Positions 11,529 to 29,223 of a stretch of DNA of 64,000 nt are shown here, piece by piece. The stretch is from Candidatus Bathyarchaeota archaeon (GTDB taxonomy: Archaea > Thermoproteota > Bathyarchaeia > Bathyarchaeales > Bathycorpusculaceae). Location of the stretch: NCBI GenBank assembly GCA_029907545.1, contig JARYLR010000002.1, forward strand, positions 1 to 64,000, read 5' to 3'. The translations under genes and the position numbers were made by a program. The first letter of the stretch is position 1. Each line of letters begins with the position of its first letter. Under the pieces are notes generated by a model. That model was not told the origin of the DNA and did no database searches. It worked only from the letters and a program-made list of their open reading frames with translations.

Positions 11529-12505
11529 TTCTTAATCACCTTCCTCCCCAAGATCGAAGACGGCAACGAATACATGTAGAACGTTCCAATCGGATCCTTA
11601 ATCTGGCTCATAAGCTCCTCAACATCCTTATCAGTGTACTTTTCCTTCTCCTCATCCAACCCCATAATCGAAGCTAAAGCACTCATCATAGCTGCACCCT
11701 GCTCAGGCGCATTGGGACACGGCCCACCGCAACCCGTGCAAGGCATGTCAACATTCAAGCATTGAGCACCGCAACCGCTACGAGTTGCCGGCCCCATACA
11801 GATTATTCCCTGCTCAAGCAGACATCTCTCAGGATCCGGAGCCTTCTCATACACGCGGTAGATCTTGGAGATCTTCTTGTTCTCCTTCTTCTTCGGGCAC
11901 TCATCGCACACAGACTTAAGAGGCGCCAACACAGACCCCTTAGCCGGCAACTCATTTTTTGCAATCGCGTCGATGGCAGCCGATATCAGCTTAACCGGAG
12001 GAGGACAGCCTGGAAGATAGTAATCAACCGCAACCGTCTGCCCCAAAGTCTTAACCGTGTCATAGAACTCTGGAAGCCTAAGCACGCCTTCTTTGGCTTC
12101 GAATTCGGTCTGTGGAACTACTCCGTTAGGGTTTTCGACAGAGCTGCATTTCAAGTAGTACTTCTCGAAAACCTCTTGACGGTTGTGGAGGTTCGCGAGG
12201 CCTGGAATGCATCCCTCGTGTGCACATGAGCCGAAAGCTACAAGGGTTTTCGCCTTCTTCCTCAGAAGCTTGGCCATGTGCTCCTGTTCCTCGTTTCTCA
12301 CTGAGCCATTGAAGAAGCAAATGTCGATGTACTTGTCAGGCATGTTTTCAACGTCTTTGTACTTGATGTCCATTGCCACTGGCCAGAAGACTATGTCTGC
12401 CAACTGGAGCACATCAAGTATTTTTTCATTTATATCTAACACAGCGATCTCGCATCCGCCGCAGCTCGCCGCCCAGTAGAAGGCTATCTTGAGCTTTTCT
12501 TTCGC
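11525..12505 (-). CDS. mvhG: NiFe hydrogenase small subunit (MvhG-like), copy 1
   Basis: A 326-residue small subunit that holds FeS clusters for electron exit from the NiFe site. It begins with YWAASCGGCE and has GSCAHEGC, PGCPPP and a Cys-rich C-terminal part (SGCGAQCLNVDMPCTGCGGPCP). An upstream ATG at 12556 exists, but the start at 12505 is preferred: it aligns with copy 2, follows the HdrB stop by 4 bases and has GGTGG about 9 bases upstream. There is no Tat signal, so the enzyme is cytoplasmic. Confidence 0.93.
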   Translation of the reverse strand, partial: AKEKLKIAFYWAASCGGCEIAVLDINEKILDVLQLADIVFWPVAMDIKYKDVENMPDKYIDICFFNGSVRNEEQEHMAKLLRKKAKTLVAFGSCAHEGCIPGLANLHNRQEVFEKYYLKCSSVENPNGVVPQTEFEAKEGVLRLPEFYDTVKTLGQTVAVDYYLPGCPPPVKLISAAIDAIAKNELPAKGSVLAPLKSVCDECPKKKENKKISKIYRVYEKAPDPERCLLEQGIICMGPATRSGCGAQCLNVDMPCTGCGGPCPNAPEQGAAMMSALASIMGLDEEKEKYTDKDVEELMSQIKDPIGTFYMYSLPSSILGRKVIKK

Positions 12506-12509
12506 CATC

Positions 12510-13397
12510 TTATTTTCCACCTTTGGTTTTATCCAGTATTCTTGATGCATCCACACGAAGCTCGCTGAAACCTAGCTCCTCAGGCTGAAAGCCCATGGCT
12601 AGACCGAGCAGCTGTGGATAGTGTAAGATTGGAATACCATAAGTCTCATTAAACATTTTCTCAATTCTCAGCTCATTTGTATCATACATTATGTGGCAAA
12701 AGGGGCAAATCGTAATCATGGCCTCAGCCTTAACCGCCTTAACGTGGTTAAGCTTGTTCCTCGCAAGCTGCAGCGCAATTTTGTCGTTTACGCCGACGCT
12801 TGGTGCACCACAGCATTCTGTCTCCTCCAAGTAGTCGAGGCATCGCGCCCCAGTTGCCTCTATCAAAGTCTTAAGAGTCTTAGGATCCTCGGGATCATCA
12901 AATCCTATAAACTCTTTCGGCCTTAGAATGTGGCAGCCATTATGCTCAGCGACGCTTAGCGCTGTAAGCGGTTTAATCACCGAGTCTTTAACCCGCTCTA
13001 GTCCGATGTCCTCGATGAGAACCTGCATCAAGTGTTTAGCTTCTATGGTTCCCTTAAACTCCAGCCCAACCTCTTTCAGACGCTGGTTTATGCTGTGCCG
13101 CAAGGCACCGTCTTCCTTAAGCATCCTGTTGACCTTCTTAAGGGTTCCAGCACAGCCGGGACAAAGCGTAATTATGTCCAGTCCTTTCTGCTCTGCCAGC
13201 GCCAAATTTCTTGCAGCCAAAACAAGCATCGCTTCGTGGCTTACTGGATCAAGAGGAAGCCCACAGCAGTTAAACTCGGGCATTTCAACGAGCTCTACGC
13301 CTAGCTTGGCGAGAACTTTCCGCGCTGAGACCTCGAAGGCTGACACCCTGTAGGGTATGGCGCAACCGAGAAAAATCAGATACCTGCCCTTCGACAT
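12510..13397 (-). CDS. hdrB: Heterodisulfide reductase subunit B (HdrB-like), copy 1
   Basis: A 295-residue protein with two CCG domains: FNCCGLP with upstream Cys and CPGC, and ECCGAP with GCHILRP upstream and CPFCH downstream. In methanogens these bind the unusual non-cubane FeS clusters where the CoM-S-S-CoB disulfide is reduced. Nothing in the window shows methane metabolism, so the physiological disulfide may differ. It is encoded directly after HdrC with no gap and before MvhG. Confidence 0.92.
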   Translation of the reverse strand: MSKGRYLIFLGCAIPYRVSAFEVSARKVLAKLGVELVEMPEFNCCGLPLDPVSHEAMLVLAARNLALAEQKGLDIITLCPGCAGTLKKVNRMLKEDGALRHSINQRLKEVGLEFKGTIEAKHLMQVLIEDIGLERVKDSVIKPLTALSVAEHNGCHILRPKEFIGFDDPEDPKTLKTLIEATGARCLDYLEETECCGAPSVGVNDKIALQLARNKLNHVKAVKAEAMITICPFCHIMYDTNELRIEKMFNETYGIPILHYPQLLGLAMGFQPEELGFSELRVDASRILDKTKGGK

Positions 13398-13925
13398 TTA
13401 GTAGCCTCCATTATTTTCAAAAAACTTCTCAGGTTTTAAGCCGCGCAATGTCTTCCTGATGCTTTCCGAATTTCCCTTCGGCAAAGGCGGAAGCCCAAGC
13501 AACTCTCTCCTTTTCACTCTAAGCTCAGGGATCTTGTAGGCGTAGCCTGACTCAAGTATGCTTGAAAACTGCTCCCTAAAGACTTGGGGTATGTGGCCTC
13601 TTTCCGCGGCAAGATTTCTTAGAACTCGGATAACGCTTGCGACTTCGACGTCCTGAGGGCAGCGGTCGGTGCAGGTGAAGCATGACGCGCAAAGCCATAA
13701 GGTGTCGCTGTCCAGAATTCTATCCTCAAGCCCAAGCTGAGCCATACGAATAATCTGCCTCGGCCTGTAGCTTTCGCTGTACCGAGCAATGGGACAGTCA
13801 GACGTGCATGTTCCGCACTGGAAGCAGCGCATCAGCTTCTCTGCGCCATGCATCTTCGAAATTTCATATTTAAACCTAGGATTTATTTCCGATGCTTTGA
13901 CCACTTTACATTCTGCCTGCGTCAT
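13398..13925 (-). CDS. hdrC: Heterodisulfide reductase subunit C (HdrC-like), copy 1
   Basis: A 175-residue ferredoxin-like subunit with two 4Fe-4S motifs: [12 protein letters not shown] and [12 protein letters not shown]. It relays electrons between HdrA and HdrB. The rest is helical with a GLPPLP segment near the end, normal for the family. It overlaps MvhD by 4 bases and abuts HdrB, so the subunits are translationally coupled. Confidence 0.92.
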
Positions 13926-14362
13926 TGCGACTTTACTTCCATTTCCTTCAACGGGTTCGGACCAAGCTTCTTTATCTGCTCAGTCATGTCCCGCACTACA
14001 GCAGCAAACTTGTCGCCTTCGCTTGCCGAGATCCATTCCAGCCGCAGACGTTCAGGTTCTATTCCAAACTCGGCTAAAGCCTTCTTCAGCAACGTGATGC
14101 GCCTTAAAGCCTTGAAGTTGCCGCTGATATAGTGGCAGTCTGAGGGTAGATGGCAGCCAGCAACGAGCACTCCGTCTGCGCCGTCTTTGAAGGCTTCAAG
14201 CACGAAAGCGGGATCTATCCTGCCACTGCACATGACGCGGATGATTCTTATGTTTGGCGGATACTGAATCCTACTTACTCCAGCAAGATCTGCACCTGCA
14301 TAGGAACACCAGTTGCAGAGAAAGCCAATTATTTTCGGTTCAAAACCGTTCTTTTCACTCAT
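13922..14362 (-). CDS. mvhD: MvhD-like FeS subunit, copy 1
   Basis: A 146-residue MvhD-family protein that links the hydrogenase to HdrA through a 2Fe-2S cluster. Cysteines are in [29 protein letters not shown]. It sits between HdrA (4-base overlap) and HdrC (4-base overlap). A second MvhD-type domain with a C-terminal extension is encoded just upstream at 17384-18139. Confidence 0.92.
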
Positions 14363-17300
14363 GTTTTAACCTCCACTAAGGCAGCTTTAACCTGTGCAAG
14401 AATTTCATCCGTGGTAAAGTGCCCCATGACAATGGCTTTCGTAGGACATGCTGTGCCACAAGCGCCGCAGCCTTTGCATAAAGCTTCAAGAACATGCGCA
14501 ACGGTTTTGCCTTCTTTGTCCTTCATCTCGACAGCACCGTAGGGGCATAGATATTCACAGATTCTACAACCACTACATAAATCTTCAGATACGTTTGCGA
14601 CTATTCCTTCCATCTCAAGCGTCTTCTTGGAAAGTATCGTTGTTGCCCTTGCCGCTGTAGCGCATGCTTGCGCTATGCTTTCATCGATGTATTTGGGCGA
14701 ATGCGCCATTCCGCAGAGGAATATACCCTCAGTCGCAAAATCCACGGGTCTAAGCTTCATGTGTGCCTCCAAAAAAAAGCCGTCTTTTGTTAGCGGCACC
14801 TTAAGCATGTCAGCTAACTTTTTATTGTCAGGATTCGGAACCGTCGCGGCACTTAAGACTATGAGATCTGGCTCAACTTCTAATTGCTCGTTCAAGACGG
14901 GTTCCCAGAAACTAGCCAAAAGCTTACCGTTTTCAGCCTTTACCTGCGGTTTCCTCTCGTCACCATAGTTTACAAATATCACGCCTTTTACAGCGGCTTC
15001 ACGATAATAGTCCTCTTTGAAACCGTAGGCTCTCATGTCCTTGTAGAGAACGTAGATTTCCGTCTCTGGGCTGGTTTCCTTGATTTTCAAGGCGTTTTTT
15101 ATGGCTTGTCCACAGCATATTCTGGCGCAGTTTGGTCTCTCATCGTTTCGTGCCCCGACGCACTGGATCATGACCACGGTTTTGGCTTGGAAGGCTCCGC
15201 TTGCAAGCTTTTCCTCAAGCTCATGCTGGGTTACGACGCGTGGATCCTTGCCATAAAGATACTCATTCGGCTTATACTCCGCCGCGCCCGTTGCCACAAT
15301 TACGACGCCATGCTCAACTTCCTTTTCTTCTCCGTCTTTCTGCCTAATCTTGGATTTGAAGTTGCCAACGAAGCCGTAGACGTCAACAACTTCCGCGTTC
15401 TTGTATACGCGTATCTTGTCGTTCTTTGTCACTGCTTCAACGAGAGCATCCAATTTTTCTTTAGGGTCGCTGTCTTTCTCAAGCAGGTAGTGAATGCGGC
15501 GCAGTTGACCGCCTAACTCAGGTTCTTTCTCGACAAGATGGACTTCAAAGCCTTGATCAGCAAGCGCCAGCGACGCTGTCATACCAGAGACTCCGCCGCC
15601 GATCATAAGCGCGACTGGAGTAACGTTGATTAGCGGCTTCTTTAATGGCGCTAGAAGTTTGGCTTTGGCAACAATTGACCGCACCAGATCTTTCGCTTTC
15701 TCTGTTGCCTCCTTCGCATCATGCATGTGCACCCAGCTACACTGGTCACGGATGTTAGTCATCTCGAAAAGGTAGGGGTTCAGTCCTGCTTCCTGAACGG
15801 TTTCCTTGAAAAGCGGTTCATGAGTCCTCGGAGTGCAGGAGGCAACAATCACGCGGTTCAGCTTGTTCTCCACAATCTTCTCTTTGATCAGCTTCTGGGT
15901 GTCTTCTGAGCAAGTGTATACGTTGGCTTCGGCGAAAACCACGTTCGGCAGCTTCCGAGCATATTCCACTACCTCAGGAACGTTAACTACTCCGCCGATA
16001 TTTATTCCACAGTGACAGACAAACACGCCGATTCGGGGCTCTTCTAGGCTTACGTCTCTTTCAGGCGGATACTCTTTCACCGCAACCTCTGCTCCCCTTT
16101 TAGAGGCAATAACTCCCATGGCTTTGGCGGCTGCACCAGACGCCTGCGCCACACTTTCCGGAATGTCCTTCGGTCCGGAAAACGCCCCACAGACAAAGAC
16201 CCCTGGTTTCGACGTTTCCATGGGAGAAAAAGCTTGGGTTTCACAGAACTTGTAACCGTTGAGTTTTATTCCCAAGCTTTCAGCGAGTTTTTCAGCATTC
16301 TTCGGCGGCTGCATTCCAACAGACAGGACAACCATGTCGAATTCTTCTGTCTTCGGTGTTTCGTCCTCCACGTAGTGAACAAAAAGGTTCTGCGTCTTCG
16401 GATCTTCTGTTACTCCAGCAACTCTTGATCTTACGAACTGGATGCCCCATTCTCCTTGAGCGCGCTTGTAGTAAGCATCAAACTCCTTCCCGTAAGAACG
16501 CATGTCCATGAAAAAGATTTTAGCATCCAGAGGCGAAGGCGTATGCTCTTTAGCTATGACTGCCTCCTTCATACCATACATGCAGCACGCCGCGGAACAA
16601 TAATTGTTGCCGAGCTGATAGTCTCGCGAACCCACACACTGAATAAAAGCAATCTTCTTGGGAATCTCGCCGTCGGAGGGACGTAGCACAAGCCCCCCAT
16701 AAGGTCCAGAAGCGCTAAGAATACGCTCGAACTCTATGCTTGTCACCACATTAGGATAGCGACCGTAACCATATTCGCTTTTAAGCTTCGCATCGAAAAC
16801 CTCGAAGCCTGGCGCAAGTATTATTGCCCCCACTTTCAGTGTGGCTTCACTGTCTTTCTGGTCATATGCGACGGCTTTTGCCTTACAGACTTCGAAACAT
16901 GTTCCGCAACCGATGCATTTTTCACGGTCGATTTTGTACTTCAGCGGAACTGCTTGGGGGTATTCAACGTAGATGGCGCTTCTATTGCTTAATCCTTCGT
17001 TGAACGTGTCTACGGCTTCAATCGGGCATTTTTGGGCACAGATGCCACATCCATTGCATTTTTCTTCAATAATGTAGCGGCTCAGCTTTCGAAGCTTAAC
17101 TTCGAAGCTTCCTGCTTCGCCATTTAATCTTGTCACTTCGACGTTCGTTAAGACCGTAATGTTGGGGTGTCTTCCTGCTGTAACAAGCTTAGGCGAAAGA
17201 ATGCACATTGAACAGTCATTTGTTGGAAATGTTTTGTCAAGCTGAGCCATCACTCCACCAATGCTTGGTGCCTGATCATCCAAATACACTTTGAAACCAG

Positions 17301-17382
17301 AATCCGCCAAATCCAGAGACGCTTGTATTCCAGCCACTCCACCGCCAATAACGAGAACTGCCCCAATTTTCTGGTTTGCCAT
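14359..17382 (-). CDS. hdrA: Tandem HdrA-type FAD/FeS electron-bifurcating subunit
   Basis: A 1007-residue protein with two HdrA-like modules. Module 1 (about 1-435) has an FAD loop at residues 10-18 (GGGVAG) and two inserted 4Fe-4S motifs ([24 protein letters not shown]). Module 2 (about 450-1007) has the N-terminal thioredoxin-like domain with Cys456, Cys458, Cys491 and Cys516, a second FAD loop near 594-600, no inserted ferredoxin, and two C-terminal 4Fe-4S motifs ([24 protein letters not shown]). Canonical HdrA is about 650 residues with one module. Known HdrA splits electrons between ferredoxin and HdrB. The MvhD-type partners on both sides support one large complex. Confidence 0.92.
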
Positions 17383-17383
17383 T

Positions 17384-18139
17384 TCATTTCACCTCCAAAG
17401 CCTTGTAGAAGGGGGTTGTTCCATCCACGTGGTCGATGGCTATCATGTTTTTCCTGCGCAGGTTAACAATGTGGCTCAGCACTGCTGCTGGTTTCAATTC
17501 AATCTTTTCAGCTAAGGCTTTAACAGAAAGTGGCTTCACGCTTGTCAAGACATGGATCTTCTGCCGAATAAACTCTGTCTGAACAATCTCATCCAGCAGT
17601 TTATCAAAGTCCTCAAATGGAATTTTCTCACCGTAAACGTTAACGCTTTCAGTTAGCTCCTTCTCCCTGCCCAACAAAACTCTTAGTCTAAAATCGGCTG
17701 CCACTTTTTTGGCTGCTGAAATATTGACAAGGAAATCAGTGTCGGGGTTGATGTTTTTAAGCGATAAGGAAGCAAGTTTTCTCATCTTGTCAGAGAACTC
17801 TGTGAGATGGCGGCTGAAGCTTTTCTTTGCAGTAGGCGAATGCCAAAGCAGTTTTAGGCGTTCTGGTTCCACATTTACCAGCGACATGAGCGTCTTAAGT
17901 ATGCTAATTGTGATTTCTGCTTGGGCATTTCCGTCCACGTAGTGGCAGTCTGGTGGCTTGCAGCCAACTAGCATAACGGCTTCTGTTCCTTTCTCAAACA
18001 TTTCCAAGATCAGCACAGGATCTATTCTTCCGATACAGCTTACTCTTGCCACGTTTACGTTTCGTGGAACTTGAGCCTCTTTTTGGCAGAAGACAAAGTC
18101 ACACATCAAACACGCAATTCTCGGCTCGTTTTTCTCCAT
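17384..18139 (-). CDS. MvhD domain fused to a winged-helix domain
   Basis: A 251-residue protein. Residues 1-140 are an MvhD-like FeS domain (CLMCDFVFC, VSCIGRIDP, VGCKPPDCHY); residues 190-250 look like a winged helix (LSVKALAEKIELKPAAVLSHIVNLRRKNMI, then a beta wing). The extension may bind a partner protein rather than DNA; related fusions with HdrA loci occur in other anaerobes. It is encoded between the NAD(P)H-type oxidoreductase and HdrA with 1-base gaps, so it is likely the adaptor between those two subunits. Confidence 0.82.
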   Translation of the reverse strand: MEKNEPRIACLMCDFVFCQKEAQVPRNVNVARVSCIGRIDPVLILEMFEKGTEAVMLVGCKPPDCHYVDGNAQAEITISILKTLMSLVNVEPERLKLLWHSPTAKKSFSRHLTEFSDKMRKLASLSLKNINPDTDFLVNISAAKKVAADFRLRVLLGREKELTESVNVYGEKIPFEDFDKLLDEIVQTEFIRQKIHVLTSVKPLSVKALAEKIELKPAAVLSHIVNLRRKNMIAIDHVDGTTPFYKALEVK

Positions 18140-18140
18140 A

Positions 18141-19874
18141 TCATTCGCCTCCTACGGTTGCCAGCGCCAAGCTTACAATCTGCTTGTCAGTTAGCTTCTT
18201 CATCGTTATGGCTCGTTCTGGACATCTGGCAGCGCATATGCCGCATCCCTTGCAAAGCTCCTCATTCACCACGGCAACGCCGTTCTCGTTCTTCTTAACT
18301 GCCTCGAACGGGCAGACAACAGCACATACATTGCAGCCTATGCACCGCTTCTCTTCAACCACAGCTTTATCTCCAACACACAAATCCATGTTCGCAAGAC
18401 ATTCCGCACACGGTCCGCAGCTCATGCAGCGAAAAGCTTCAAACATAGCATTCCGCTTCATCTTCTCCAAGTACTTGGCAGTCTCTTCCAAACTTAGATG
18501 CGGCTTCTCCAGAGGAGGCTCATATCTACGCTCCTTTTTGCCTATAGATCCCCAGTTCTTAACCCATGTCGTCTCCTCAATATTCTCGTATCTCCCACTC
18601 TGCAAATCCTGCCCTGTAAGATAAAAATGAATAGACAATGCAGCCCGTTTGCCAGCACCCACAGCCTCAATTATGCTTGCCGGCCCAGTAACGACATCTC
18701 CGCCAGCGAAGACCCCTGGCACCTTGGTCTCCAAAGTTATTGGGTTAACTCTGATTGATGGTGCACGCGCATCCTTGTCGCAGAGCTCTTGCGGTATGCA
18801 CGTCATTTCCGCCGACTGCCCCAGAGCCGGGATAACCATGTCAACCTCATATTGATGTTCTGAAAAGCTTACGGGAACTGGGCGTCTTCTTCCGCTTTCA
18901 TCCGGTTCTCCAAGCCGCATGCGAAGGCATTCAATAGCCTTAACCTTTCCGTTTTCTCCAACGATCTGTTTAGGTGCGACAAGAAAGTGAAACACCACCC
19001 CATCTTTCTCAGCCAACTTCACCTCGTGGGGAAGCGCAGGCATCTCCTCACGGGAACGACGGTATAGAATCATGACTTCTCGTGCGCCAAGCTTTCGGGC
19101 AGTTCTAGCCGCGTCTATCGCGCTGTTCCCACCTCCAACAACTACCACTTTCTCACCAACTTTAACATGCTCTCCAAGAGCCACTGCCCTAAGAAAATCA
19201 ACGGCGTTAACAACGCCATCAAGGTCTTCGCCTGGAACGCTTAATTTCATGCCAAGCTGCGTTCCAATAGCCAAAAAAAACGCTTTGTAACCGTCTCTAC
19301 GCAGACTATCAAGGGTCACGTCCTTGCCAAATGTAACTCCGGTTCTAATCTCTACACCTAGATCAGCAATATAGGTAGCCTCATTGGCAACCACAAACTT
19401 CTCAAGGCGGAAGTCAGGTATGCAATAGCGCATCATGCCGCCAGGCTCGGACATCTGTTCAAAAACTGTCACTGGGTAACCGCGCTTTGCGAGTTCGTAT
19501 GCCGCTGTTAGGCCCGCGGGACCTGCGCCGATTATGGCAACTTTTTCACTACGTCTAATCGACATTAAATCCGGCTTAAGCTTAGGTCTAACACGCCCTT
19601 GCTCGCGTTCTATGTCGGCAACAAGTCTCTTCAGGGCGCGTATAGCAACCGCTTGATCCACGTTTGCCCTTGCACACGCGTCTTCGCATGGGCTAAAGCA
19701 GACTCTTCCGCATATTGCTGGGAAAGGCATGTCTTCTCTTATGACTTCTACGGCTTCTAGGAATTTGCCTTTTTGAATCAGAGCAACGTATGCTTGAACA
19801 TTTACTCCTGCTGGGCATGCGGAGCGGCAGGGCGGCAGTTTTCTCTTCACATTTGTTATGTTTTTGGTTGACAT
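18141..19874 (-). CDS. GltD/NfnB-like FAD/FeS oxidoreductase
   Basis: A 577-residue protein of the glutamate-synthase small-chain family. It has an N-terminal Cys-rich helical domain (CRSACPAGVNV, CGRVCFSPCEDAC), an FAD-binding GAGPAGLTAA loop, an NAD(P)-binding GGGNSAIDAA loop, a GGDVVTGPAS motif, and two C-terminal 4Fe-4S motifs (CIGCNVCAVVCP, CKGCGICAARCP). Such proteins exchange electrons between NAD(P)H and FeS partners. It is first in the operon with MvhD-HdrA-MvhAG, so it probably connects the hydrogenase-Hdr complex to the NAD(P) pool. The second cluster has no such gene. Confidence 0.88.
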   Translation of the reverse strand: MSTKNITNVKRKLPPCRSACPAGVNVQAYVALIQKGKFLEAVEVIREDMPFPAICGRVCFSPCEDACARANVDQAVAIRALKRLVADIEREQGRVRPKLKPDLMSIRRSEKVAIIGAGPAGLTAAYELAKRGYPVTVFEQMSEPGGMMRYCIPDFRLEKFVVANEATYIADLGVEIRTGVTFGKDVTLDSLRRDGYKAFFLAIGTQLGMKLSVPGEDLDGVVNAVDFLRAVALGEHVKVGEKVVVVGGGNSAIDAARTARKLGAREVMILYRRSREEMPALPHEVKLAEKDGVVFHFLVAPKQIVGENGKVKAIECLRMRLGEPDESGRRRPVPVSFSEHQYEVDMVIPALGQSAEMTCIPQELCDKDARAPSIRVNPITLETKVPGVFAGGDVVTGPASIIEAVGAGKRAALSIHFYLTGQDLQSGRYENIEETTWVKNWGSIGKKERRYEPPLEKPHLSLEETAKYLEKMKRNAMFEAFRCMSCGPCAECLANMDLCVGDKAVVEEKRCIGCNVCAVVCPFEAVKKNENGVAVVNEELCKGCGICAARCPERAITMKKLTDKQIVSLALATVGGE

Positions 19875-19909
19875 TGTTAAACCCGCTTATGTAGAATATT
19901 AGCCCGCTA

Positions 19910-19958
19910 CGGAATATATTAACGCATTCAAGCCACCTATAACGCAAAATTAACGCAT
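19910..19958 (-). promoter_or_regulatory. Phased TAACGCA repeats in the hdr/mvh operon promoter
   Basis: Three copies of TAACGCA on the plus strand at 19920-19926, 19940-19946 and 19951-19957, spaced 20 and 11 bases apart, so on about the same face of the helix. The first touches an AT-rich TATA-like stretch (19910-19920) about 40 bases upstream of the oxidoreductase start at 19874. Tandem short sites fit cooperative binding by a dimeric regulator, for example the ribbon-helix-helix protein encoded next door. That link is inference. Confidence 0.45.
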
Positions 19959-19997
19959 GAAAAAACACGTAGCTACGGAAAAAAGAGGAGATGCAGG

Positions 19998-20588
19998 CTA
20001 CTCTCTTAACCTTCCTTCAAGCCTGCTTACCCACTTGTTATATTCTCTCGCGCCAAGCAACCCTTTGAGTTCCTGTTCGAGCACAAGCGAATTCTTAGGC
20101 TTTATCTCAGCGATCCATCCTTCGCCATACGGGTCCTCGTTGATCAAGTGCGGTTCATTTTTCAGCTTGTCATTGGTCTTGGCTATTTTGCCGCTGACTG
20201 GGGCATAGAGGTCAAACATGAACATCCATGTTTCCGCGACGCCAAGGGGCTCCATCTTGCTGATTTCCTTGCCAGGTGCTTCAGTCATAACGTTGGCTAT
20301 GCCTTTCAGATGTCTTTGGGCGTAGTCAGATACGCCGACGCGGATGTTGCCTTCTGGTGTTATCTGTGCCCATGTGTGTTTAGGCGTGTACAGTAGGAGT
20401 TCTGGTGTTTTTAGTAGTTCTTTGCGTTTTTCTGCTGAGATTCCTTCAGCTCGCATAAGGTCTTCTAGGCGCAGTCGGATGGCTTCTGAGACGAATTCTG
20501 AGATGCTTCGGTATCTTCCTGTTTTGATTGCTTCTTCGATTTCTTTTATTAGTTCTTGTCTCAAACTTACGGTTTTCCATTCGGACAT
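19998..20588 (-). CDS. Ribbon-helix-helix domain fused to a lysine-less GcvH-like domain
   Basis: A 196-residue fusion. Residues 1-45 are a ribbon-helix-helix DNA-binding domain (VSLRQELIKEIEEAI, then SISEFVSEAIRLRL). Residues 67-196 follow glycine cleavage H protein closely: YTPKHTWAQI, VGVSDYAQRHL, DLYAPVSGKI, YGEGWIAEIKP. At the lipoyl-lysine position the sequence reads ETWMF (Met122) instead of ES-x-K, so it cannot be lipoylated there. It is better seen as a regulator using the H-protein fold as a sensor or docking part than as a glycine-cleavage carrier. It lies 123 bases upstream of the hdr/mvh operon on the same strand. A strong GGAGG precedes the ATG. Confidence 0.88.
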   Translation of the reverse strand: MSEWKTVSLRQELIKEIEEAIKTGRYRSISEFVSEAIRLRLEDLMRAEGISAEKRKELLKTPELLLYTPKHTWAQITPEGNIRVGVSDYAQRHLKGIANVMTEAPGKEISKMEPLGVAETWMFMFDLYAPVSGKIAKTNDKLKNEPHLINEDPYGEGWIAEIKPKNSLVLEQELKGLLGAREYNKWVSRLEGRLRE

Positions 20589-20638
20589 TTTTTATCAGCC
20601 TCCTTTACATCTGATTGATATATAGCGTAAAAGAAGAA

Positions 20639-20680
20639 TATATACTTAGTGTATATAAAGAAAGAAGTAGTAAATACCAT
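20639..20680 (-). promoter_or_regulatory. Promoter and inverted repeat upstream of the RHH-GcvH gene
   Basis: The inverted repeat TATATAC-5-GTATATA (20639-20657) overlaps a minus-strand TATA-like box (CTTTATATAC, 20651-20660), about 50-70 bases upstream of the start at 20588. Next to it, AGTAGTAAATACCAT (20666-20680) matches 13 of 15 bases of a site in the PhoU-gene promoter (21016-21030). A symmetric site over the TATA box suggests repression, perhaps by the RHH protein itself. Confidence 0.45.
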
Positions 20681-20701
20681 GATACGCTAGCCAGCTTCGC
20701 T

Positions 20702-20908
20702 TCACTTTTTCCTTCTGCCAAAATCCAGAAAATTCCAAACCCGCTCATGCAAATAATAAATGACAATCTTCAACACGAACTCCCAGAATCCAACACCAAG
20801 GCTAATTGTCAGATTCCCAGTAGCCACAAAAACCAACAGGGTAGTCGTTAATGTGGCAACTATCCTCCAAGAAATCGCCTTCGCCAAACTTCTAATATGT
20901 TTCTCCAA
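20702..20908 (-). CDS. DUF2061 membrane protein
   Basis: A 68-residue protein matching the DUF2061 pattern: SLAKAISWRIVATLTTTLLV, a second hydrophobic part (ISLGVGFWEFVLKIVIYYLHERVWN) and a basic end (FGRRKK). Two membrane spans are likely. The family is small, widespread and of unknown function. It is on the same strand as, and upstream of, the RHH-GcvH gene, but a separate promoter seems to serve that gene. Confidence 0.8.
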   Translation of the reverse strand: MEKHIRSLAKAISWRIVATLTTTLLVFVATGNLTISLGVGFWEFVLKIVIYYLHERVWNFLDFGRRKK

Positions 20909-21001: not shown

Positions 21002-21042
21002 GATATAAAATAAGGAATAGTAAATACTATCCCAAGCGGTGA
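21002..21042 (+). promoter_or_regulatory. Promoter, operator-like element and Shine-Dalgarno of the PhoU-like gene
   Basis: A TATA-like GATATAAAAT (21002-21011) is followed by AATAGTAAATACTAT (21016-21030), which includes the inverted repeat ATAGT-4-ACTAT and is shared with the region upstream of the RHH-GcvH gene. A GGTGA (21039-21043) about 7 bases before TTG at 21050 decides that start. Position downstream of the TATA box suggests an operator. Confidence 0.4.
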
Positions 21043-21049
21043 CATATTT

Positions 21050-22123
21050 TTGGAAAGCAGAAAACTGCAAAAAGTAGGCTACTCAACAATAACCGTTTCT
21101 CTTCCAAGCGAATGGGTGAAACAGAACAAGATAAGTCCAGGCGACCTAGTTTTCCTATCTTCAGAAAGAGACGGCACTTTACGAATTATGCCAAGTCAGA
21201 TTGCCCAGCGAGAGGAAGCAGAAGAGTTCATAGTGAATGCTGATGCAGTAGATAGCAATGGACTACTTGAGAGAATTGTTGTTGGATGCTACATACTTGG
21301 ACACGATGTGATAAGGATAACCTCTGCCACCCGCATAGAGAAGGAGCAAATAGATGAAGTTCGAAGAGTAGTTCGCAAGCTAATAGGGCTGGGCATCATA
21401 GAAGAAACCCCCAGAAGCATTTTGCTTCAGTGTTCGGTTGATCCGGCAAAGTTCAAACTCGACATGTTAACTCGACGGCTGTCTCTAATAGCGTCAACAA
21501 TTCTTCTCGAAGCAATCCAAGCGTTTGTTGACGGCAACGAGTCCTTAGCACAAGAAGCCATAAGCCGAGAAGACGAGGCAGACACAATTTACTATTTGGC
21601 TGTGCGTCTCCTTCTTTCTGCTCAGGTTAAACCAGACATCGCGGAACAGATAGGAGCCATAGACATTCTCTTTATTCCGGCCACACGTTTGATACTGCAG
21701 TATCTAGAGCTCATTGCCGATTACGCGGAAGACATAGCCAAAAGAATTGTCGAGCTAAAGATCTACAGAAAAAAATTGCCACCCGAGATCATTGAGCGAA
21801 TCCAAAACCTAAGCGAATCAACACAAACTGTCTTTCAAAAGGCGCTAGATTGCATTTTCACAGGAGACTTGAAAGTTGCAAATGAAGTTCTGGAAATGAA
21901 AAAGGTAATCGAGTTAGAGTCTAATAGATTCATGCGGGAAGCTCCCGAGATAATATACATTAGGTCAGTTGTAACATGTTTGAATAAGGTTGCCGATATT
22001 GGCGCTACAATCGCAAATATAGCGATAAATAAGGCGTTGGAGCAGCCTAACAAGTATGTGGAAGACATCATACGGACAGTGAAACACACTCGAACTGTGC
22101 CGATTTCGTCGAAAAGAAACTAA
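21050..22123 (+). CDS. AbrB-PhoU family phosphate regulator
   Basis: A 357-residue archaeal PhoU-type protein. Residues 1-50 form a SpoVT/AbrB-like swapped-hairpin domain (GYSTITVSLPSEWVKQNKISPGD), and residues 120-350 are two PhoU three-helix bundles with acidic metal-site patterns (EDEADTIYY and ADYAEDIAKR). PhoU proteins report phosphate-transport state to transcription or to the Pst transporter; no pst gene is in the window. The TTG start is chosen because GGTGA is well placed upstream. It separates the two Mvh/Hdr clusters together with the next gene. Confidence 0.85.
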   Translation: MESRKLQKVGYSTITVSLPSEWVKQNKISPGDLVFLSSERDGTLRIMPSQIAQREEAEEFIVNADAVDSNGLLERIVVGCYILGHDVIRITSATRIEKEQIDEVRRVVRKLIGLGIIEETPRSILLQCSVDPAKFKLDMLTRRLSLIASTILLEAIQAFVDGNESLAQEAISREDEADTIYYLAVRLLLSAQVKPDIAEQIGAIDILFIPATRLILQYLELIADYAEDIAKRIVELKIYRKKLPPEIIERIQNLSESTQTVFQKALDCIFTGDLKVANEVLEMKKVIELESNRFMREAPEIIYIRSVVTCLNKVADIGATIANIAINKALEQPNKYVEDIIRTVKHTRTVPISSKRN

Positions 22124-22212: not shown

Positions 22213-22686
22213 ATGGGCAGTTTTGAAGAAGCATTAAAGAATATCGACGTTTTCTGCAAAGCTTTGGCAAAGAAAATAACTGAAAATGACAAAGGAATAG
22301 AGAGTGATCTTCCTATTGAGCCTGTTGAAAAGCTTTTGCGGCAAAGATACGTGGCTGAGATAAAGGAAGAACTATCTCCGCCTAAACCACCGCTGATACC
22401 GCTTCCTCAGCTCGAACAGCCCTTAATTGATGTCTTCGAGGATGAGTACTCATACAAGGTTCTTTTGCAATGCCGATGTCGCGATGAGAAAGTCATGATC
22501 CACACAGATGTTGATAGCGTGGAAATCTGCAAAAGAGAATGCTTCATTGATTCCCAAGGCGTTGAAGTATGTGCGGATAACTGTCAGAGACTTGACTTGC
22601 CTCCGAACCGCCTACAGATAGAGAAAATGATCACTAAATGCAATAACAACGAAGTCTTTGAGATAGAGATCCCGAAGAAAAACTGA
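22213..22686 (+). CDS. Hsp20-like (CS-domain) protein, Cys-rich
   Basis: A 157-residue protein. Residues 1-75 are helical with a Pro-rich linker (PPKPPLIPLP). Residues 77-157 have the spacing of an alpha-crystallin domain: LIDVFEDEYSYKVLLQ at the start and LDLPPNRLQIEKM with a closing FEIEIPKK strand. Seven or more cysteines in the domain (LQCRCRD, CKREC, CADNC) are unlike ordinary Hsp20 and suggest metal binding or disulfides. It is 89 bases after the PhoU gene. A chaperone role is inferred. Confidence 0.6.
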   Translation: MGSFEEALKNIDVFCKALAKKITENDKGIESDLPIEPVEKLLRQRYVAEIKEELSPPKPPLIPLPQLEQPLIDVFEDEYSYKVLLQCRCRDEKVMIHTDVDSVEICKRECFIDSQGVEVCADNCQRLDLPPNRLQIEKMITKCNNNEVFEIEIPKKN

Positions 22687-22999: not shown

Positions 23000-23875
23000 C
23001 TAGCTGATTTTGCTCAGCACCTTGTCTACTCGGATTTTGTGGAAGTCTAACGCAAGCTCTTTGGGATCGATTCCGAGACTTAAACTAAGAAGCTCAGTAT
23101 AGTGAAGTATAGGCAGATTGTACTCTTCATGGTACGTGCTTTTCATAAGAAACTGCCCTAGATCAAGAGTGAGGAAGCAAAAAGGGCAGAGTGTTGATAG
23201 ACAGTCGGCTCCAGCCTTGGTAGCCATCGCAATCTTATCTCGAGCGATCGCTAATGCGATGTCATCAGCATACCCTCTCAGCAGCCCGCCGCAGCATTTC
23301 AGCTTGTTCCTGTACCATATGCTTTTGGCGCCCAGAGCTTCCACAAGATTGTCAAAAAGTTTCGGTCGTTCCGGATCGTCAAACTTGAGAAGCGCGCTAG
23401 GTCTGAGAGAGTGGCATCCATAGAACGTAGCTACTTTTAGGTTGCCAAGTTTTCTTGTGACGTTTTTCTTCAAATGGTCTATGCCAACGTCTTTCATAAG
23501 CACTTGCAGGTAATGTCTTACTTCCTTGTTTCCTCGAAACTCTTTTCCTGCGTTAGATAGAATCTTGTTGACTCTTTCCTTGAGCTTGGCATTTTCCCTG
23601 AGCAGGTTGTTTGCGATTGCTAGAGACTCGAAGCAGCCTGTGCACAGCGTGACTATGTCGAGGTCGGCTTCTTCAGCTAGGCTGATGTTGTACGCTGCCA
23701 TTGAAAGACTGGTTTCTAAGTCTATGGACTGCAGAGGCGGAGGTGCACAGCACGTCATGCCTTCCAGATCTACGAGATCTATTCCGAGTTTGGCAAGGGA
23801 TTTACGCGCTGAAACCTCGTAGTGTGGTTGTCTGGCAGGTATCGTGCAGCCTAAGAACAACGCGTAACGTGTCAT
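23000..23875 (-). CDS. hdrB: Heterodisulfide reductase subunit B (HdrB-like), copy 2
   Basis: A 291-residue two-CCG-domain protein like copy 1: MTCCAPPP in the first domain (here Cys-Cys-Ala rather than CCG), CTGC, GCHSLRP, KCCGGLL and CPFCF in the second. It would hold the disulfide-reducing FeS centre. The altered first CCG motif marks a difference from copy 1, where it is FNCCGLP. It is the last gene of the second operon and overlaps HdrC by 4 bases. Confidence 0.9.
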   Translation of the reverse strand: MTRYALFLGCTIPARQPHYEVSARKSLAKLGIDLVDLEGMTCCAPPPLQSIDLETSLSMAAYNISLAEEADLDIVTLCTGCFESLAIANNLLRENAKLKERVNKILSNAGKEFRGNKEVRHYLQVLMKDVGIDHLKKNVTRKLGNLKVATFYGCHSLRPSALLKFDDPERPKLFDNLVEALGAKSIWYRNKLKCCGGLLRGYADDIALAIARDKIAMATKAGADCLSTLCPFCFLTLDLGQFLMKSTYHEEYNLPILHYTELLSLSLGIDPKELALDFHKIRVDKVLSKIS

Positions 23876-24387
23876 TGTGGTTCTTCCTTCTTTTTCAGCT
23901 TATCAAAACCTGTTGCCGAAAGGATTTTTCTCAAGGTATCCATGTTCGCTGGCTTAAGAGGAGGCAGACCGTAGTCGGCTCTTTTTTTCTCCAAAAACTT
24001 GGACATTGGGACTATTTTGCCTTCACTCATCAACCCCGCTGAGAACTCGGAATAAATATTAGGCATTTTTCCTTCTCTTATAGCCAAGTTCCGCAACGCA
24101 TAGAACACGTCAGCAATTTCCACTTTCTGCGGGCATCGTTCCTGGCAGTTATAGCATGAGCAGCAAAGCCACAAGGCATCTCCGAACAAGATTTCTTCTT
24201 TTTCTCCTAGAAGTGACTGGCGGATCACTTCTCTGGGATTGAATCGTTCGCTCACTCTCGCCACCGGACAGCTGCTGGCACAGGTTCCGCACTGGTAGCA
24301 TGAGGCTAAGGTTTCGCCGCCAAGCATGTGCCTTACTTCCTCGAGAAAAGTCTTACCGGAGCTTTTCGCTGTCTTGCCATGCGCCAT
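23872..24387 (-). CDS. hdrC: Heterodisulfide reductase subunit C (HdrC-like), copy 2
   Basis: A 171-residue protein with the two 4Fe-4S motifs CYQCGTCASSCP and CCSCYNCQERCP. It relays electrons from HdrA to HdrB. The size and tail (GLPPLKP) match copy 1. It is encoded 14 bases after the HdrA-MvhD fusion. Confidence 0.9.
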   Translation of the reverse strand: MAHGKTAKSSGKTFLEEVRHMLGGETLASCYQCGTCASSCPVARVSERFNPREVIRQSLLGEKEEILFGDALWLCCSCYNCQERCPQKVEIADVFYALRNLAIREGKMPNIYSEFSAGLMSEGKIVPMSKFLEKKRADYGLPPLKPANMDTLRKILSATGFDKLKKKEEPQ

Positions 24388-24401
24388 AGTGTCTATCTCC
24401 T

Positions 24402-26819
24402 CTAAGAACTACTAAGCTGCAGTGGGCTCATTTTCTCCAGTTTTTCAGTCATCGTCTGCGCTACTTCAGCGAACTTGTCGCCTTCGATGTAGACAAGGTT
24501 AAACATTTCAAGTCTTTCTGGTTCGATGCCGTACTCCTTAAGCAGCATCTTGGCAAGTTCCACTTTCTTCTTTGCCTTGGGGCTTCCAACCTCGTAGTGG
24601 CATCCATCAGTCTTGCATCCTACAACCATGACCCCTTGAGCGCCTGCTTTGAAGGCTTCTAGGATCTGGTGGATTTGAAGGATGCCTGTGCAGGGGACTT
24701 TCATGACTCTTACGTTTGCAGGATACTCCAGCATAGCCATGCCTGAAGAATCAACAGCTGTGTGTCCACATTCTGAGCAGCAGATAGCGAGAATCAGCGG
24801 TTTTGATGTTCCGTTAACTGACATCAGAGCCTTCATCTGGGCAAGCATCTGGCTAGGTCTATAGTGCCTAAGCTCAATAGCATTGAGGGGACAGGTGCCT
24901 ACGCAGATGCCGCAGCCTTCGCATTGAAGCTCGGACACTTGAGCGACAAAGTGGTCTTCTCCTTTCTGAACAAGGCTTATTGCGCCGTATGGACAGGTAA
25001 CAGGGCAAAATTCGCAGTCACCGCAGTACTCATCATCTATCACGGCAGTTTTCTGATCCTTGACAATTTTGCCGGTAGAGAGAAACTTGGCAGCCTTCAG
25101 AGCGGCAGAGTGTGCATGCAGAGAAGAGGTTGGCGCATCCTTGGGAAAGGTTGCGCCTCCGCAGAGGAATATGCCTTTTCGCTTGGTCTCGGTGGGTCTA
25201 AGCTTGGCGTTGTATTCTTTGAAGAAGCCATCCTGCTCCAGCTCGATTCCAAGCATGCTAGCTAGCTCCTTCGTTCCCTGAGTAGGCACCATTGAAGTGG
25301 CAAGAACCACAAGGTCAGCTTCTAGTTCAAGAAACTTTCTGGAAACAGCGTCTTCAACGTCAACGATTAGCGTGTTGTCTTCAGGATCATGTGCGATCTC
25401 TGTGGGTCTGCCCTTGACGAATTTTATTCCCATGTCTCTTGCGCGTTCATAGTAGTATTCATGCTCTCTTCCCGTTGTTCTTATGTCTATGTAGCATATC
25501 GTCACATCGGTTTCCGGGTCAGCGGATTTCACCAGCATCGCGTTCTTAAGCGAAATCATGCAGCAGATGCTTGAGCACCACGGATTCCAACGTCTGTCAC
25601 GGGAACCGACACATTGAACGAAAACTATTCTCTTAGCTGGTTCTCTTGTCGAAGGCCTGATTATACTTCCGCCTGTTGGACCAAAGCAGTCTATCATTCT
25701 GGCAAGCTGAAGGTTAGTTACCACGTCTGGGTACTCGCCATAGTGGTACTCCTTGATCACGCTTGGATCATACTCTTCGAAGCCTGTGGCAACCACGATG
25801 GCGCCGACGTTAAGTGTCTTTTTCTCTGTTTTCTGGTCAAGCTCAACTGCCTTGGTGGGACAGACTTTCACGCATTTTTCACACTCGTGAAACTTGCATG
25901 CCTTTTCATCTATGACGTAGACGGGCGGATATACTTCTGGAATGTTAATGTAGATTGCTTTCCGTTTTTTCAGTTTCACATTATAATCATCTGGAACTTC
26001 CACAGGGCACACTTCTGCGCAGAGGTTGCAGCGGATGCATTTTTGCTCATCAACGTACCGTGGCTTTTTCTCTATCGTAACCCGATAATTGCCTGGCACT
26101 CCCTCTACTGCTGTGATCTTTGAGTTGGTTAGCACGTTGAGATTCTGGATCTCGGTGAATCCAGAGCGGTACACGCATTTTCTGGATGTGTGGGTTATGG
26201 ACTTGACGTCGGTTGAGGGTGCCTGAATGCAGATGGCGCAGTCGTCAGTTGGGAAGAATCTGCCAGCGCGAGAAGCTAAGCCGCCTAGGAACGGTTCTTT
26301 TTCCACTAGCTGAACTTCAAAGCCGAGTTCAGCCAGATCCTCTGCTGTTTGCATTCCTGCAATTCCGCCGCCGATAACTAAGATTGATTTGAGAGCAGGA
26401 AATTCCAGCTTCTCTAAGGGTTCCAGAAGCTTTGCTCTTTCGATAGCGGCTAGAAGCATGGCTTTTGCTTTGGCTGTGGCTTCTGCAGGCTTGTTCCTGT
26501 GAGGTCGCGCGCAGTGGTCTTCTAGGTCTATGACTTCTACCAGAAAGGGGTTAAGTCCAGCTTTTTCAACTGCCTTGACTATGTTTACTTCGCTTAGTTT
26601 CGGAAGTCTTTCGGCGACGACCACCCGATTGAGTTTCTTCGTTTTAACCGCGTTAACGATGGCTTTCAGCCCGTCGCCTCGCCAGAACTCTTTTGCTCTT
26701 TCGACGAGAACTACTTTTGCCACGTTCTTTGCGAAGCTCGCCAAAGCATCATAGTCCAGTACCTTGGAGGACTGGTTTCCGCCTTCTGACAGGAATACTC
26801 CAACTTTTGGTTCATCCAT
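24402..26819 (-). CDS. hdrA: HdrA-MvhD fusion, copy 2, N-terminal cluster ligands lost
   Basis: An 805-residue protein: thioredoxin-like domain (1-140), FAD domain (GGGIAGMQTA near 148-157) with inserted ferredoxin motifs (CIRCNLCAEVCP and an atypically spaced CKFHECEKCVKVCP), two C-terminal 4Fe-4S motifs (CGDCEFCPVTCP, CEGCGICVGTCP), then a fused MvhD domain (about 670-805; CCSECG, VPCTGI, VGCKTDGCHY). Against the other HdrA, the N-terminal cluster cysteines are replaced (Ser11, Gly13, Trp46, Arg71) in a gap-free stretch, while a later Cys103 is kept. The N-terminal FeS cluster is therefore probably absent. The fusion removes the need for a free MvhD. Confidence 0.9.
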   Translation of the reverse strand: MDEPKVGVFLSEGGNQSSKVLDYDALASFAKNVAKVVLVERAKEFWRGDGLKAIVNAVKTKKLNRVVVAERLPKLSEVNIVKAVEKAGLNPFLVEVIDLEDHCARPHRNKPAEATAKAKAMLLAAIERAKLLEPLEKLEFPALKSILVIGGGIAGMQTAEDLAELGFEVQLVEKEPFLGGLASRAGRFFPTDDCAICIQAPSTDVKSITHTSRKCVYRSGFTEIQNLNVLTNSKITAVEGVPGNYRVTIEKKPRYVDEQKCIRCNLCAEVCPVEVPDDYNVKLKKRKAIYINIPEVYPPVYVIDEKACKFHECEKCVKVCPTKAVELDQKTEKKTLNVGAIVVATGFEEYDPSVIKEYHYGEYPDVVTNLQLARMIDCFGPTGGSIIRPSTREPAKRIVFVQCVGSRDRRWNPWCSSICCMISLKNAMLVKSADPETDVTICYIDIRTTGREHEYYYERARDMGIKFVKGRPTEIAHDPEDNTLIVDVEDAVSRKFLELEADLVVLATSMVPTQGTKELASMLGIELEQDGFFKEYNAKLRPTETKRKGIFLCGGATFPKDAPTSSLHAHSAALKAAKFLSTGKIVKDQKTAVIDDEYCGDCEFCPVTCPYGAISLVQKGEDHFVAQVSELQCEGCGICVGTCPLNAIELRHYRPSQMLAQMKALMSVNGTSKPLILAICCSECGHTAVDSSGMAMLEYPANVRVMKVPCTGILQIHQILEAFKAGAQGVMVVGCKTDGCHYEVGSPKAKKKVELAKMLLKEYGIEPERLEMFNLVYIEGDKFAEVAQTMTEKLEKMSPLQLSSS

Positions 26820-26830
26820 ACGTGATCCCT

Positions 26831-28288
26831 CTATCTTCTCACCGTTTTTACAAGATGCTTTTCGCAGTCGTATATGTTAACTTCCAGCGGTATTTCCCCG
26901 ACAGCAAAGTGAGTGGCGCATGCGAAGCATGGATCGTATGCGCGGAACGCCATCTCCACCATGTTGAGCAATCCGTCAGATACCTTGCCCTTATGAATAA
27001 GCCCTTTCGCCGCATTCTTAATTGACATGCAAATGCCAGGCGCGTTATGCGTGGTAGCAACAATCAAGTTAACTTTCTTGGCTAAGGCTTTCTCATCAAG
27101 CTGATAATGGTGGATCAGCGTGCCTCTAGCTGCCTCGACTATGCCAACTCCTTCGCCAGGTTTTCCAGGCGTGTTTTTTATGTCTTTTCGCGTAATGTCC
27201 TTGTCCGTGATAAGCTCAAGTGCACGTTCAGCCGCATAAAGCAATTCGATGAGTCTGGCCCAGTGATATGCAAGCGTGTTGTGAACAGGTTTTCCGCCTA
27301 AAATCTTGTACATTTTCTCGTATTCTTTCTGCGCTCCCGGCGTGGCCATGCCGTCTGCCGCATTGAGTCTTCCAAGTGGACCTACACGGTAGATGCCGCT
27401 TTTGTCTCCGTCAACCAGTCCTTTCCAGCCCACTTTCTTAAGGTAGGGAAGCTTGACATACGTCCACGGCTCGACATGCTCCTCGATAATGTCTAGGTAT
27501 TCTTTGGGACTAAATTTCACGTATTCTTTTCCTTGAGGGTCTACGACTCTGACTTTGCCGTCGTAGAAGTTCACCTTGTTGTTCTTATCAACCAGTCCCA
27601 TGTAGTACGTGTTCAGAACGTAGGGCGCGCTCTTGACCAAGTTGACGTAATCAGCATTTTTGAGAACTATGTCCTCGAAAAGCTTCAGCGAGAATCCAGC
27701 GAAATTCACGCAACTCTTGACCATCTCCTCTATTTCTCTTCTGTCCTCTTCAGATAGGGCTTTAGCAATGCCGCCGGGGATGCAGGCGCTAACTGGGTGT
27801 GTTGGTCGTCCGCCAAGGATGCCTGTTATCTTTTGCCCATAAGCTCTGTGTTTGATGACTTCTTTGCCTATGTCTAGGCCGGCTTTTTCTATGACTCCAA
27901 GCACGTTTCTTTTTGCGGCTGGAGCGTCTGGCCCTACGACGAAGTCTGGTCCTCCTAGGAAGTAGAAGTGCAGTATGTGGTCGTAGATGTAGTATGCGAC
28001 GTATTCGAGTTCTCTAAGTTTCTTGGCGGTTTTGGTGGGTTCCACGTTGAAAGCGGCATCCAGAGCCTTTGCGCTTGCCATGTGGTGCGCGACTGGGCAG
28101 ACTCCGCAGATTCTGGTTGTAATTATGGGCAGATCTTCGGCTCTTCTTCCTTCGCAGAATTTTTCGAAGCCTCTAAGTTCAGGAACTTGGAAGTAGACGT
28201 TCTCTACCTCGCCTTGATTGTCGAGGAATATGGTTATTTTTCCGTGACCTTCAAGTCGCGTAATTGGGTCTATGACTACTTCTTTCAT
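26831..28288 (-). CDS. mvhA: F420-non-reducing NiFe hydrogenase large subunit (MvhA-like), copy 2
   Basis: A 485-residue NiFe large subunit strongly similar to copy 1. Metal motifs are RICGVCPVAHH (Cys61, Cys64) and DPCFACATH (Cys454, Cys457, His460), followed by a 25-residue cleavable tail. It overlaps the small subunit gene by 4 bases. No maturation protease gene is attached to this operon, so the one at 9462-10004 may serve both. Confidence 0.95.
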   Translation of the reverse strand: MKEVVIDPITRLEGHGKITIFLDNQGEVENVYFQVPELRGFEKFCEGRRAEDLPIITTRICGVCPVAHHMASAKALDAAFNVEPTKTAKKLRELEYVAYYIYDHILHFYFLGGPDFVVGPDAPAAKRNVLGVIEKAGLDIGKEVIKHRAYGQKITGILGGRPTHPVSACIPGGIAKALSEEDRREIEEMVKSCVNFAGFSLKLFEDIVLKNADYVNLVKSAPYVLNTYYMGLVDKNNKVNFYDGKVRVVDPQGKEYVKFSPKEYLDIIEEHVEPWTYVKLPYLKKVGWKGLVDGDKSGIYRVGPLGRLNAADGMATPGAQKEYEKMYKILGGKPVHNTLAYHWARLIELLYAAERALELITDKDITRKDIKNTPGKPGEGVGIVEAARGTLIHHYQLDEKALAKKVNLIVATTHNAPGICMSIKNAAKGLIHKGKVSDGLLNMVEMAFRAYDPCFACATHFAVGEIPLEVNIYDCEKHLVKTVRR

Positions 28289-29223
28289 TTCATTACCTTC
28301 CTTTTCAATATGGAATTGGCAAGAGAATACTTGTAGAAAGTTCCCACAGGGTCAACAACCTGTTCAATGACGGCTGGATCAGTTGCAATAGAAGCCATCG
28401 CGCTGACTATCGCTGCACCTTGATCAGCCACACGTGGACCTGGACCGCCGCAGCCGGTGCAAGGTATGTTCACTTTGGGACATTGTGCCCCGCAGCCTGA
28501 GCGTGTGGCTGGACCCATGCAGATCACGCCTTGGTCCCAGAAGCATGTTTTGAAGTCATCTTCAATTTCGTAAATTCTTCTTATCTGTGATAGTTTTCTG
28601 TCCATTTTCTCTCTTGGGCATTCATCGCAGATTGACTTGTTCGGGAGCAAGCTTGATCCTTTTGGAGGAAGTTTGCCACTTAATACGGCTTCAAAGGCTT
28701 GCACTATGTTTGGAATTGGCGGGGGACAGCCTGAGAGGAAATAGTCTACATCAACTGTTTGAGCCAGTGTTTTCACGGTGTCATAGAACTCTGGGAGTTC
28801 AAGTTCGCCTTCTTTGACTTTAAGTGAAGTCTGAGGAGTAACCTTGTCCGGGTTTCTTGTAGAGGGGGTTTCAAGGTAAGCTCTTTCAAAGATTGTTTTT
28901 CTGTCCCACAGGTTTGCAAGACCCTTAACGCATCCGTCGTTTGCACATGAGCCGAAGGCTACTAGGATTTTGGATTTTGCTCTAAGGAGCTTGGCAATCC
29001 GCTCGTTTTCCGCTGTCCTGATTGCGCCGTTGAAGAAGCATACGTCTATGCTCTTGTCGGCCATGGCTTCAACGTCCTTATATTTCATGTCGATGGCCAC
29101 TGGCCAGAAGACTATGTCTACTTTGGCGACTATGTCTAGGATTTTTTCGTTTACGTCTAGAACTGCTATTTCGCAGCCTCCGCAACTTGCTGCCCAGTAG
29201 AAGGCGACTTTAAGCTTCTCCAT
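28285..29223 (-). CDS. mvhG: NiFe hydrogenase small subunit (MvhG-like), copy 2
   Basis: A 312-residue small subunit: YWAASCGGCE at the start, GSCANDGC, SGCPPP, and SGCGAQCPKVNIPCTGCGG near the end for the FeS clusters. It starts the second Mvh/Hdr operon. It lacks a Tat signal, as expected of a cytoplasmic bidirectional or bifurcating complex. The start is supported by alignment with copy 1. Confidence 0.93.
   Translation of the reverse strand: MEKLKVAFYWAASCGGCEIAVLDVNEKILDIVAKVDIVFWPVAIDMKYKDVEAMADKSIDVCFFNGAIRTAENERIAKLLRAKSKILVAFGSCANDGCVKGLANLWDRKTIFERAYLETPSTRNPDKVTPQTSLKVKEGELELPEFYDTVKTLAQTVDVDYFLSGCPPPIPNIVQAFEAVLSGKLPPKGSSLLPNKSICDECPREKMDRKLSQIRRIYEIEDDFKTCFWDQGVICMGPATRSGCGAQCPKVNIPCTGCGGPGPRVADQGAAIVSAMASIATDPAVIEQVVDPVGTFYKYSLANSILKRKVMK

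Follow-up and report, generated by a model that had tools for sequence, protein, structure and literature searches.

A conserved gene fusion that joins a ribbon-helix-helix (RHH) domain to an H-protein domain lacking the lipoyl lysine was identified in Bathyarchaeia, mostly next to Hdr and [NiFe]-hydrogenase genes. The gene is located at positions 19998–20588, on the minus strand, of the window, that is, the whole stretch of 64,000 nucleotides of Bathyarchaeota DNA that was analyzed. Bathyarchaeia are abundant sediment archaea whose gene regulation is little known. The encoded protein is probably a dimeric one-component regulator of the adjacent Hdr/hydrogenase genes, with the lysine-less H-domain as its input domain, and is a candidate for switching the hydrogen and electron-bifurcation metabolism of these archaea. 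The chances are about even that it represents, more broadly, a new class of archaeal one-component regulators in which a once-delipoylated H-protein receives the input and which, as heterodimeric ETWMF/ETWWF pairs in several lineages and together with a divergent AbrB-PhoU protein, controls hydrogenase/Hdr electron-bifurcation operons. The original prediction knew of no regulator of this kind, and no description of an RHH joined to a lysine-less H-protein was found in the open-access literature searched. The family is a recurrent case of a cofactor-carrier protein that has lost its cofactor site and been recruited as an apparent regulatory domain.

Architecture of the fusion protein

The two domains that had been predicted in this single open reading frame of 196 amino acids were both recognized by Pfam. 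Residues 6–42 (20463–20573, minus strand) matched the DNA-binding domain RHH_1 (E 1.4e-4, with a score of 22.1 bits where the cut-off is 20.5), and residues 65–187 (20028–20396, minus strand) matched GCV_H (PF01597) with an E-value of 4e-28. The RHH_1 score fell below the cut-off in several relatives, and a profile built from 19 fusion N-termini gave a weak match to the NikR RHH domains of the PDB (E 0.004). NikR, the nearest solved RHH protein, likewise has its RHH at the N-terminus, followed by a sensor domain; this sensor is a nickel-binding, ACT-like domain, whereas the C-terminal domain of the fusion has the GCV_H fold. The nickel responsive regulator model scored 16.9 on the window fusion, against a cut-off of 119, and no ligand site for NikR-like nickel sensing was identified in it.

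The AlphaFold2 monomer model of the fusion reached a mean pLDDT of 82.5, with values above 90 across most of the GcvH part. When this model was searched with Foldseek, the 21 best PDB matches were all H-proteins, including some in complex with T-protein, with TM-scores of up to 0.93 by target length and, for most solved H-proteins, an identity of 28–39% in the structural alignment. The N-terminal 20 residues were modeled as a helix of low pLDDT and the RHH strand was absent, as would be expected of a monomer model if the strand forms only in the dimer.

The lipoyl site of the solved H-proteins (ESxKx) aligned without a gap in phmmer with the motif ETWMF of the fusion (residues 119–123; 20220–20234, minus strand), the lysine being replaced by Met122 (codon 20223–20225) exactly as the original prediction had proposed. 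In the model, W121-M122-F123 formed the loop at the tip of the lipoyl hairpin, between strands 114–120 and 124–128. The window fusion scored 93.3 bits with the gcvH equivalog model of NCBIfam, below the cut-off of 115.85. The protein resembles GcvH in its full-length domain and fold, and differs from a functional GcvH in having no lipoyl-accepting lysine and in scoring below the equivalog cut-off.

Loss of the lipoyl lysine in the family

The class-wide search comprised 257 genomes of Bathyarchaeia and gave fusion matches in about 41 of them, as counted from the matches listed. A total of 49 distinct near-full-length fusion proteins, all from Bathyarchaeia, were aligned, and the lipoyl lysine was found in none of them, as opposed to 31 of the 32 stand-alone GcvH proteins checked. 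The stand-alone GcvH lacking this lysine (L044, 238–723) carries ETWNF and no RHH, and its long branch groups with those of the fusions. In the tree, the fusions and L044 were split from all of the lysine-bearing GcvH proteins with a support of 100/99. In the preferred explanation, lipoylation of the H-domain was lost a single time, ahead of the diversification of the family.

The residues that set the fusions apart from the lysine-bearing GcvH proteins were concentrated at the hairpin, between positions 120 and 125. In the M-type fusions, which carry ETWMF, T120, W121, and F123 were present in all 38 sequences, and M122 and F125 in 37 of 38 each, whereas the lysine-bearing set has S, V/I, K, A, and S at positions 120, 121, 122, 123, and 125, respectively (ESxKA at the lipoyl site). 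The dN/dS values of the fusions ranged from 0.007 to 0.09, and these genes are under purifying selection. The separate clade of the fusions, the near-invariant hairpin residues and the dN/dS values (0.007–0.087) indicated that the lysine loss is old and that selection maintains the motif that replaced it. Taken alone, the missing catalytic lysine would also fit a functionless, decaying relic, or the fusion might be a misassembly, but this extremely improbable explanation was refuted by the low dN/dS, the invariance of W121 in the M-type, the 49 distinct near-full-length proteins, the conserved promoters and the recurrence of the fusion in about 40 separate genomes, which also disposed of an assembly artefact.

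Despite these changes at the hairpin, the H-fold, much of its surface and E119 were kept in the fusions. The glutamate of the HEW motif at position 72, which touches the aminomethyl-lipoyl arm in the pea H-protein, was replaced as well (T72 in the window). The host genome encodes GcvT, a single LplA/LipB-type protein and one separate lysine-bearing GcvH whose gene has no gcv neighbors, so that the real H-protein chemistry probably takes place elsewhere in the cell. The conserved fold and surface, the presence of such partners in the host and the T-protein complexes among the best structural matches would all suit a docking decoy for the enzymes that act on H-proteins (an LplA-type ligase, T-protein or a dihydrolipoamide dehydrogenase-like flavoprotein), through which the metabolism of lipoate or glycine would influence the expression of the hydrogenase/Hdr genes. 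Such a decoy is nevertheless unlikely: the aromatic residues replace exactly the lysine hairpin on which those enzymes act, the HEW glutamate is lost too, and no gcv or lip genes were seen beside any fusion in the neighborhoods inspected. None of the homologs of the fusion kept the lysine, and none was seen beside glycine-cleavage genes; the original prediction had named homologs with both features as contrary to it.

Two paralogous types of fusion were distinguished, the M-type and a W-type with ETWWF-like motifs. The W-type formed a single clade (support of 100/100); the monophyly of the M-type was not resolved. Several lineages carry both as tandem genes, in which ETWWF, or a tip that is longer and altered, marks the first gene and ETWMF the second, while the genome and lineage of the window have only the M-type. 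The RHH strand position is Ser8 in the lineage of the window and Arg/Lys in both of the tandem copies, as would fit heterodimers that share one operator; T6, S8, and R10 are the residues of the RHH predicted to face the DNA. Tandem W and M proteins would probably pair through their RHH domains.

The distribution of the fusion was also analyzed outside the class. Among the matches listed from 398 Thermoproteota genomes, those of fusion length lay only inside Bathyarchaeia, and those outside it spanned just the GcvH part. A scan of GTDB contigs with a single RHH peptide pattern, which fusions with a different RHH could escape, returned only Bathyarchaeota records and two MAGs labeled as "uncultured archaeon." No relative of the fusion was detected in the viral contigs searched, and the plasmids searched gave just ordinary GcvH-type matches of low identity.

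Gene neighborhood and promoter regions

In agreement with the original prediction, the fusion lies directly upstream of a hydrogenase-Hdr operon. The genes downstream of it, all on the minus strand, encode a GltA-like NAD(P)/FAD/Fe-S oxidoreductase (18141–19874), an MvhD (FlpD)-like protein whose C-terminal region resembles a helix-turn-helix (MvhD-HTH, 17384–18139), HdrA (14359–17382), and, as judged from sequence and gene order, putative MvhD-like (13922–14362), HdrC-like (13398–13925), and HdrB-like (12510–13397) subunits and an MvhG-like [NiFe]-hydrogenase small subunit (11525–12556). The MvhA-like large subunit (10074–11528; PF00374, E 3.7e-40) and the hydrogenase maturation protease HycI (9462–10004; PF01750) complete the series. 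On the other side, a DUF2061 gene (20702–20908) separates the fusion, in the window, from the divergent gene of an AbrB(MazE)-PhoU regulator (21050–22123, plus strand; Pfam PhoU and MazE). Most loci show the same order, with AbrB-PhoU divergent from the M-type gene, which may be preceded by a W-type gene and is followed by GltA, MvhD-HTH, HdrA, MvhD, HdrC, HdrB, MvhG, MvhA, and HycI.

The AbrB-PhoU regulator is co-inherited with the fusion: its subfamily (E at most 1e-78) was found in 38 of the 41 fusion genomes vs. 8 of the 216 others, and 31 fusion genomes vs. 26 of the others had the MvhD-HTH marker, with Fisher values of 6e-34 and 4e-16 that overstate the significance because related genomes are treated as independent. 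Some of the exceptions corresponded to contig ends. Since 10 of the 41 fusion genomes were without the MvhD-HTH marker and 26 genomes had it without the fusion, the fusion and the MvhD-HTH operon are not obligate partners.

Other features of these loci were recorded. The C-terminal region of MvhD-HTH gave weak ArsR/PF0610-like matches, and its relatives occurred in 57 of the 257 genomes of the class, many of them without the RHH-GcvH fusion. After AbrB-PhoU, a conserved protein of about 157 amino acids (22213–22686, plus strand) without a Pfam match is encoded in many loci, and its end appeared Hsp20-type-like by eye. On the far side of AbrB-PhoU, the window contains a second MvhG-MvhA-HdrA-HdrC-HdrB cluster (23000–29223, minus strand), which is syntenic in many relatives.

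In the promoter region of the fusion (20589–20700, minus strand), an imperfect GTAWWTAC palindrome (20667–20680) accompanies TATA-like elements and the ribosome site. A 28-nt copy (82%) of 20653–20680 precedes the AbrB-PhoU gene (21003–21030, plus strand), and the perfect palindrome ATAGTAAATACTAT at 21017–21030 had a single match in the whole genome at up to one mismatch, so that a wider regulon cannot be read from it. Upstream of the fusion, GTAWWTAC-like elements (in many cases), a CATTA-n-GTATATAT-like block, a TATATATCA-like block and the ribosome site were kept across families. GTAWWTAC was found at 23 sites in 36 divergent regions, vs. 1.2 expected from shuffles, an excess that is inflated by related loci. 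The palindrome was also present at L177, an AbrB-PhoU locus lacking the fusion; it may therefore be the operator of AbrB-PhoU instead of a site of the RHH.

The promoter region of the downstream operon is intergenic (19875–19997, minus strand). The phased repeats noted at 19910–19958 do exist there, as three copies of TGCGTTAW within 40 bp; however, across the window the motif occurred about as often as chance would predict (4 copies vs. 3.7 expected) and the repeat pattern was conserved only within the genus, so it was rejected as a proven operator. The promoter that the repeats overlap, a CTTAATATAT block between the fusion and GltA, was conserved across genera in M-only lineages.

Domain exchange and proposed mode of action

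The genes downstream of the fusion differ in family f5, where in most cases a TauE/SafE permease, a protein of 124 amino acids and HoxEFUYH-like hydrogenase genes follow, without GltA-Hdr. In L060, TauE and the GltA-Hdr operon occur together, and L061 has TauE and the 124-amino acid protein with no hydrogenase directly downstream. This protein (L059:12944–13318, L061:13000–13374, and others), which mostly precedes the Hox-type genes, gave no Pfam match and seemed PD-(D/E)XK-like when its sequence was inspected by eye.

In AbrB-PhoU loci without the fusion, other domains occupy its place. In L178 (6252–7061), an RHH with 71% identity to that of the window is joined to DUF2096 instead of GcvH, at the same site, divergent from AbrB-PhoU and directly before HdrA-MvhD-HdrC-HdrB. 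A ligand-binding domain of the Lrp/AsnC type was found at this place in L177 and in L182, where it precedes Hox-type genes. This exchange of domains gives the strongest support for a modular protein, in which the RHH would bind DNA and the C-terminal domain would be an interchangeable module for the input.

The same loci bear on whether the H-domain could instead belong to the GltA-HdrA complex as an adaptor with a structural or regulatory part, the RHH serving only for oligomerization or autoregulation. The tight synteny with GltA-HdrA would fit this role, as would the lysine-bearing GcvH-like proteins that work with Hdr-like complexes in sulfur oxidizers (PMC6067878), but most of f5 has TauE and a Hox-type hydrogenase downstream without GltA-Hdr, DUF2096 replaces the H-domain at the same site while the RHH is kept, and L061 has no hydrogenase directly downstream. 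An adaptor is thus quite improbable, even more so than the docking decoy. The sulfur oxidizer proteins had also served the original prediction as an analogy, which was not supported: the LbpA proteins resemble the fusion in having a GcvH-like domain and hdr genes as neighbors, but all of the 95 aligned keep the lysine (PMC6067878), which the window fusion lacks while carrying an RHH, and the Hdr of the window is of the HdrABC-MvhADG type beside a [NiFe]-hydrogenase, unlike the Hdr-like sulfur oxidation cluster.

For the preferred function as a one-component regulator, we infer that the fusion dimerizes and that its RHH would bind DNA near the flanking promoters, namely its own, which is divergent from AbrB-PhoU, and that of the adjacent Hdr/hydrogenase operon, whose expression it would control. 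The H-protein domain, having lost lipoylation once, would now act as the input domain. The aromatic/Met tip (T-W-M-F-x-F) that replaces the lysine hairpin is probably a docking or ligand surface, and would report the redox or metabolic state that calls for the hydrogenase-Hdr complex. The domain exchange and the W/M tandem pairs offer direct handles on what the H-fold senses. A partial counterpart is HdrR of Methanosarcina barkeri, which is described as a helix-turn-helix regulator that activates hdrBCA of this methanogen (PMC11218639). It is an archaeal regulator of an hdr operon, as the fusion is proposed to be, and differs in its described domain, which is neither RHH nor GcvH.

Furthermore, RHH domains related to that of the fusion were detected in three short genes, L101:1096–1455, L102:10001–10333, and L037:11234–11617, where they are followed by a short, Cys-rich C-terminal tail, its cysteines being conserved in the pattern CPMFGWF...GCKxRKKxCxWFVG, which is possibly metal-binding.
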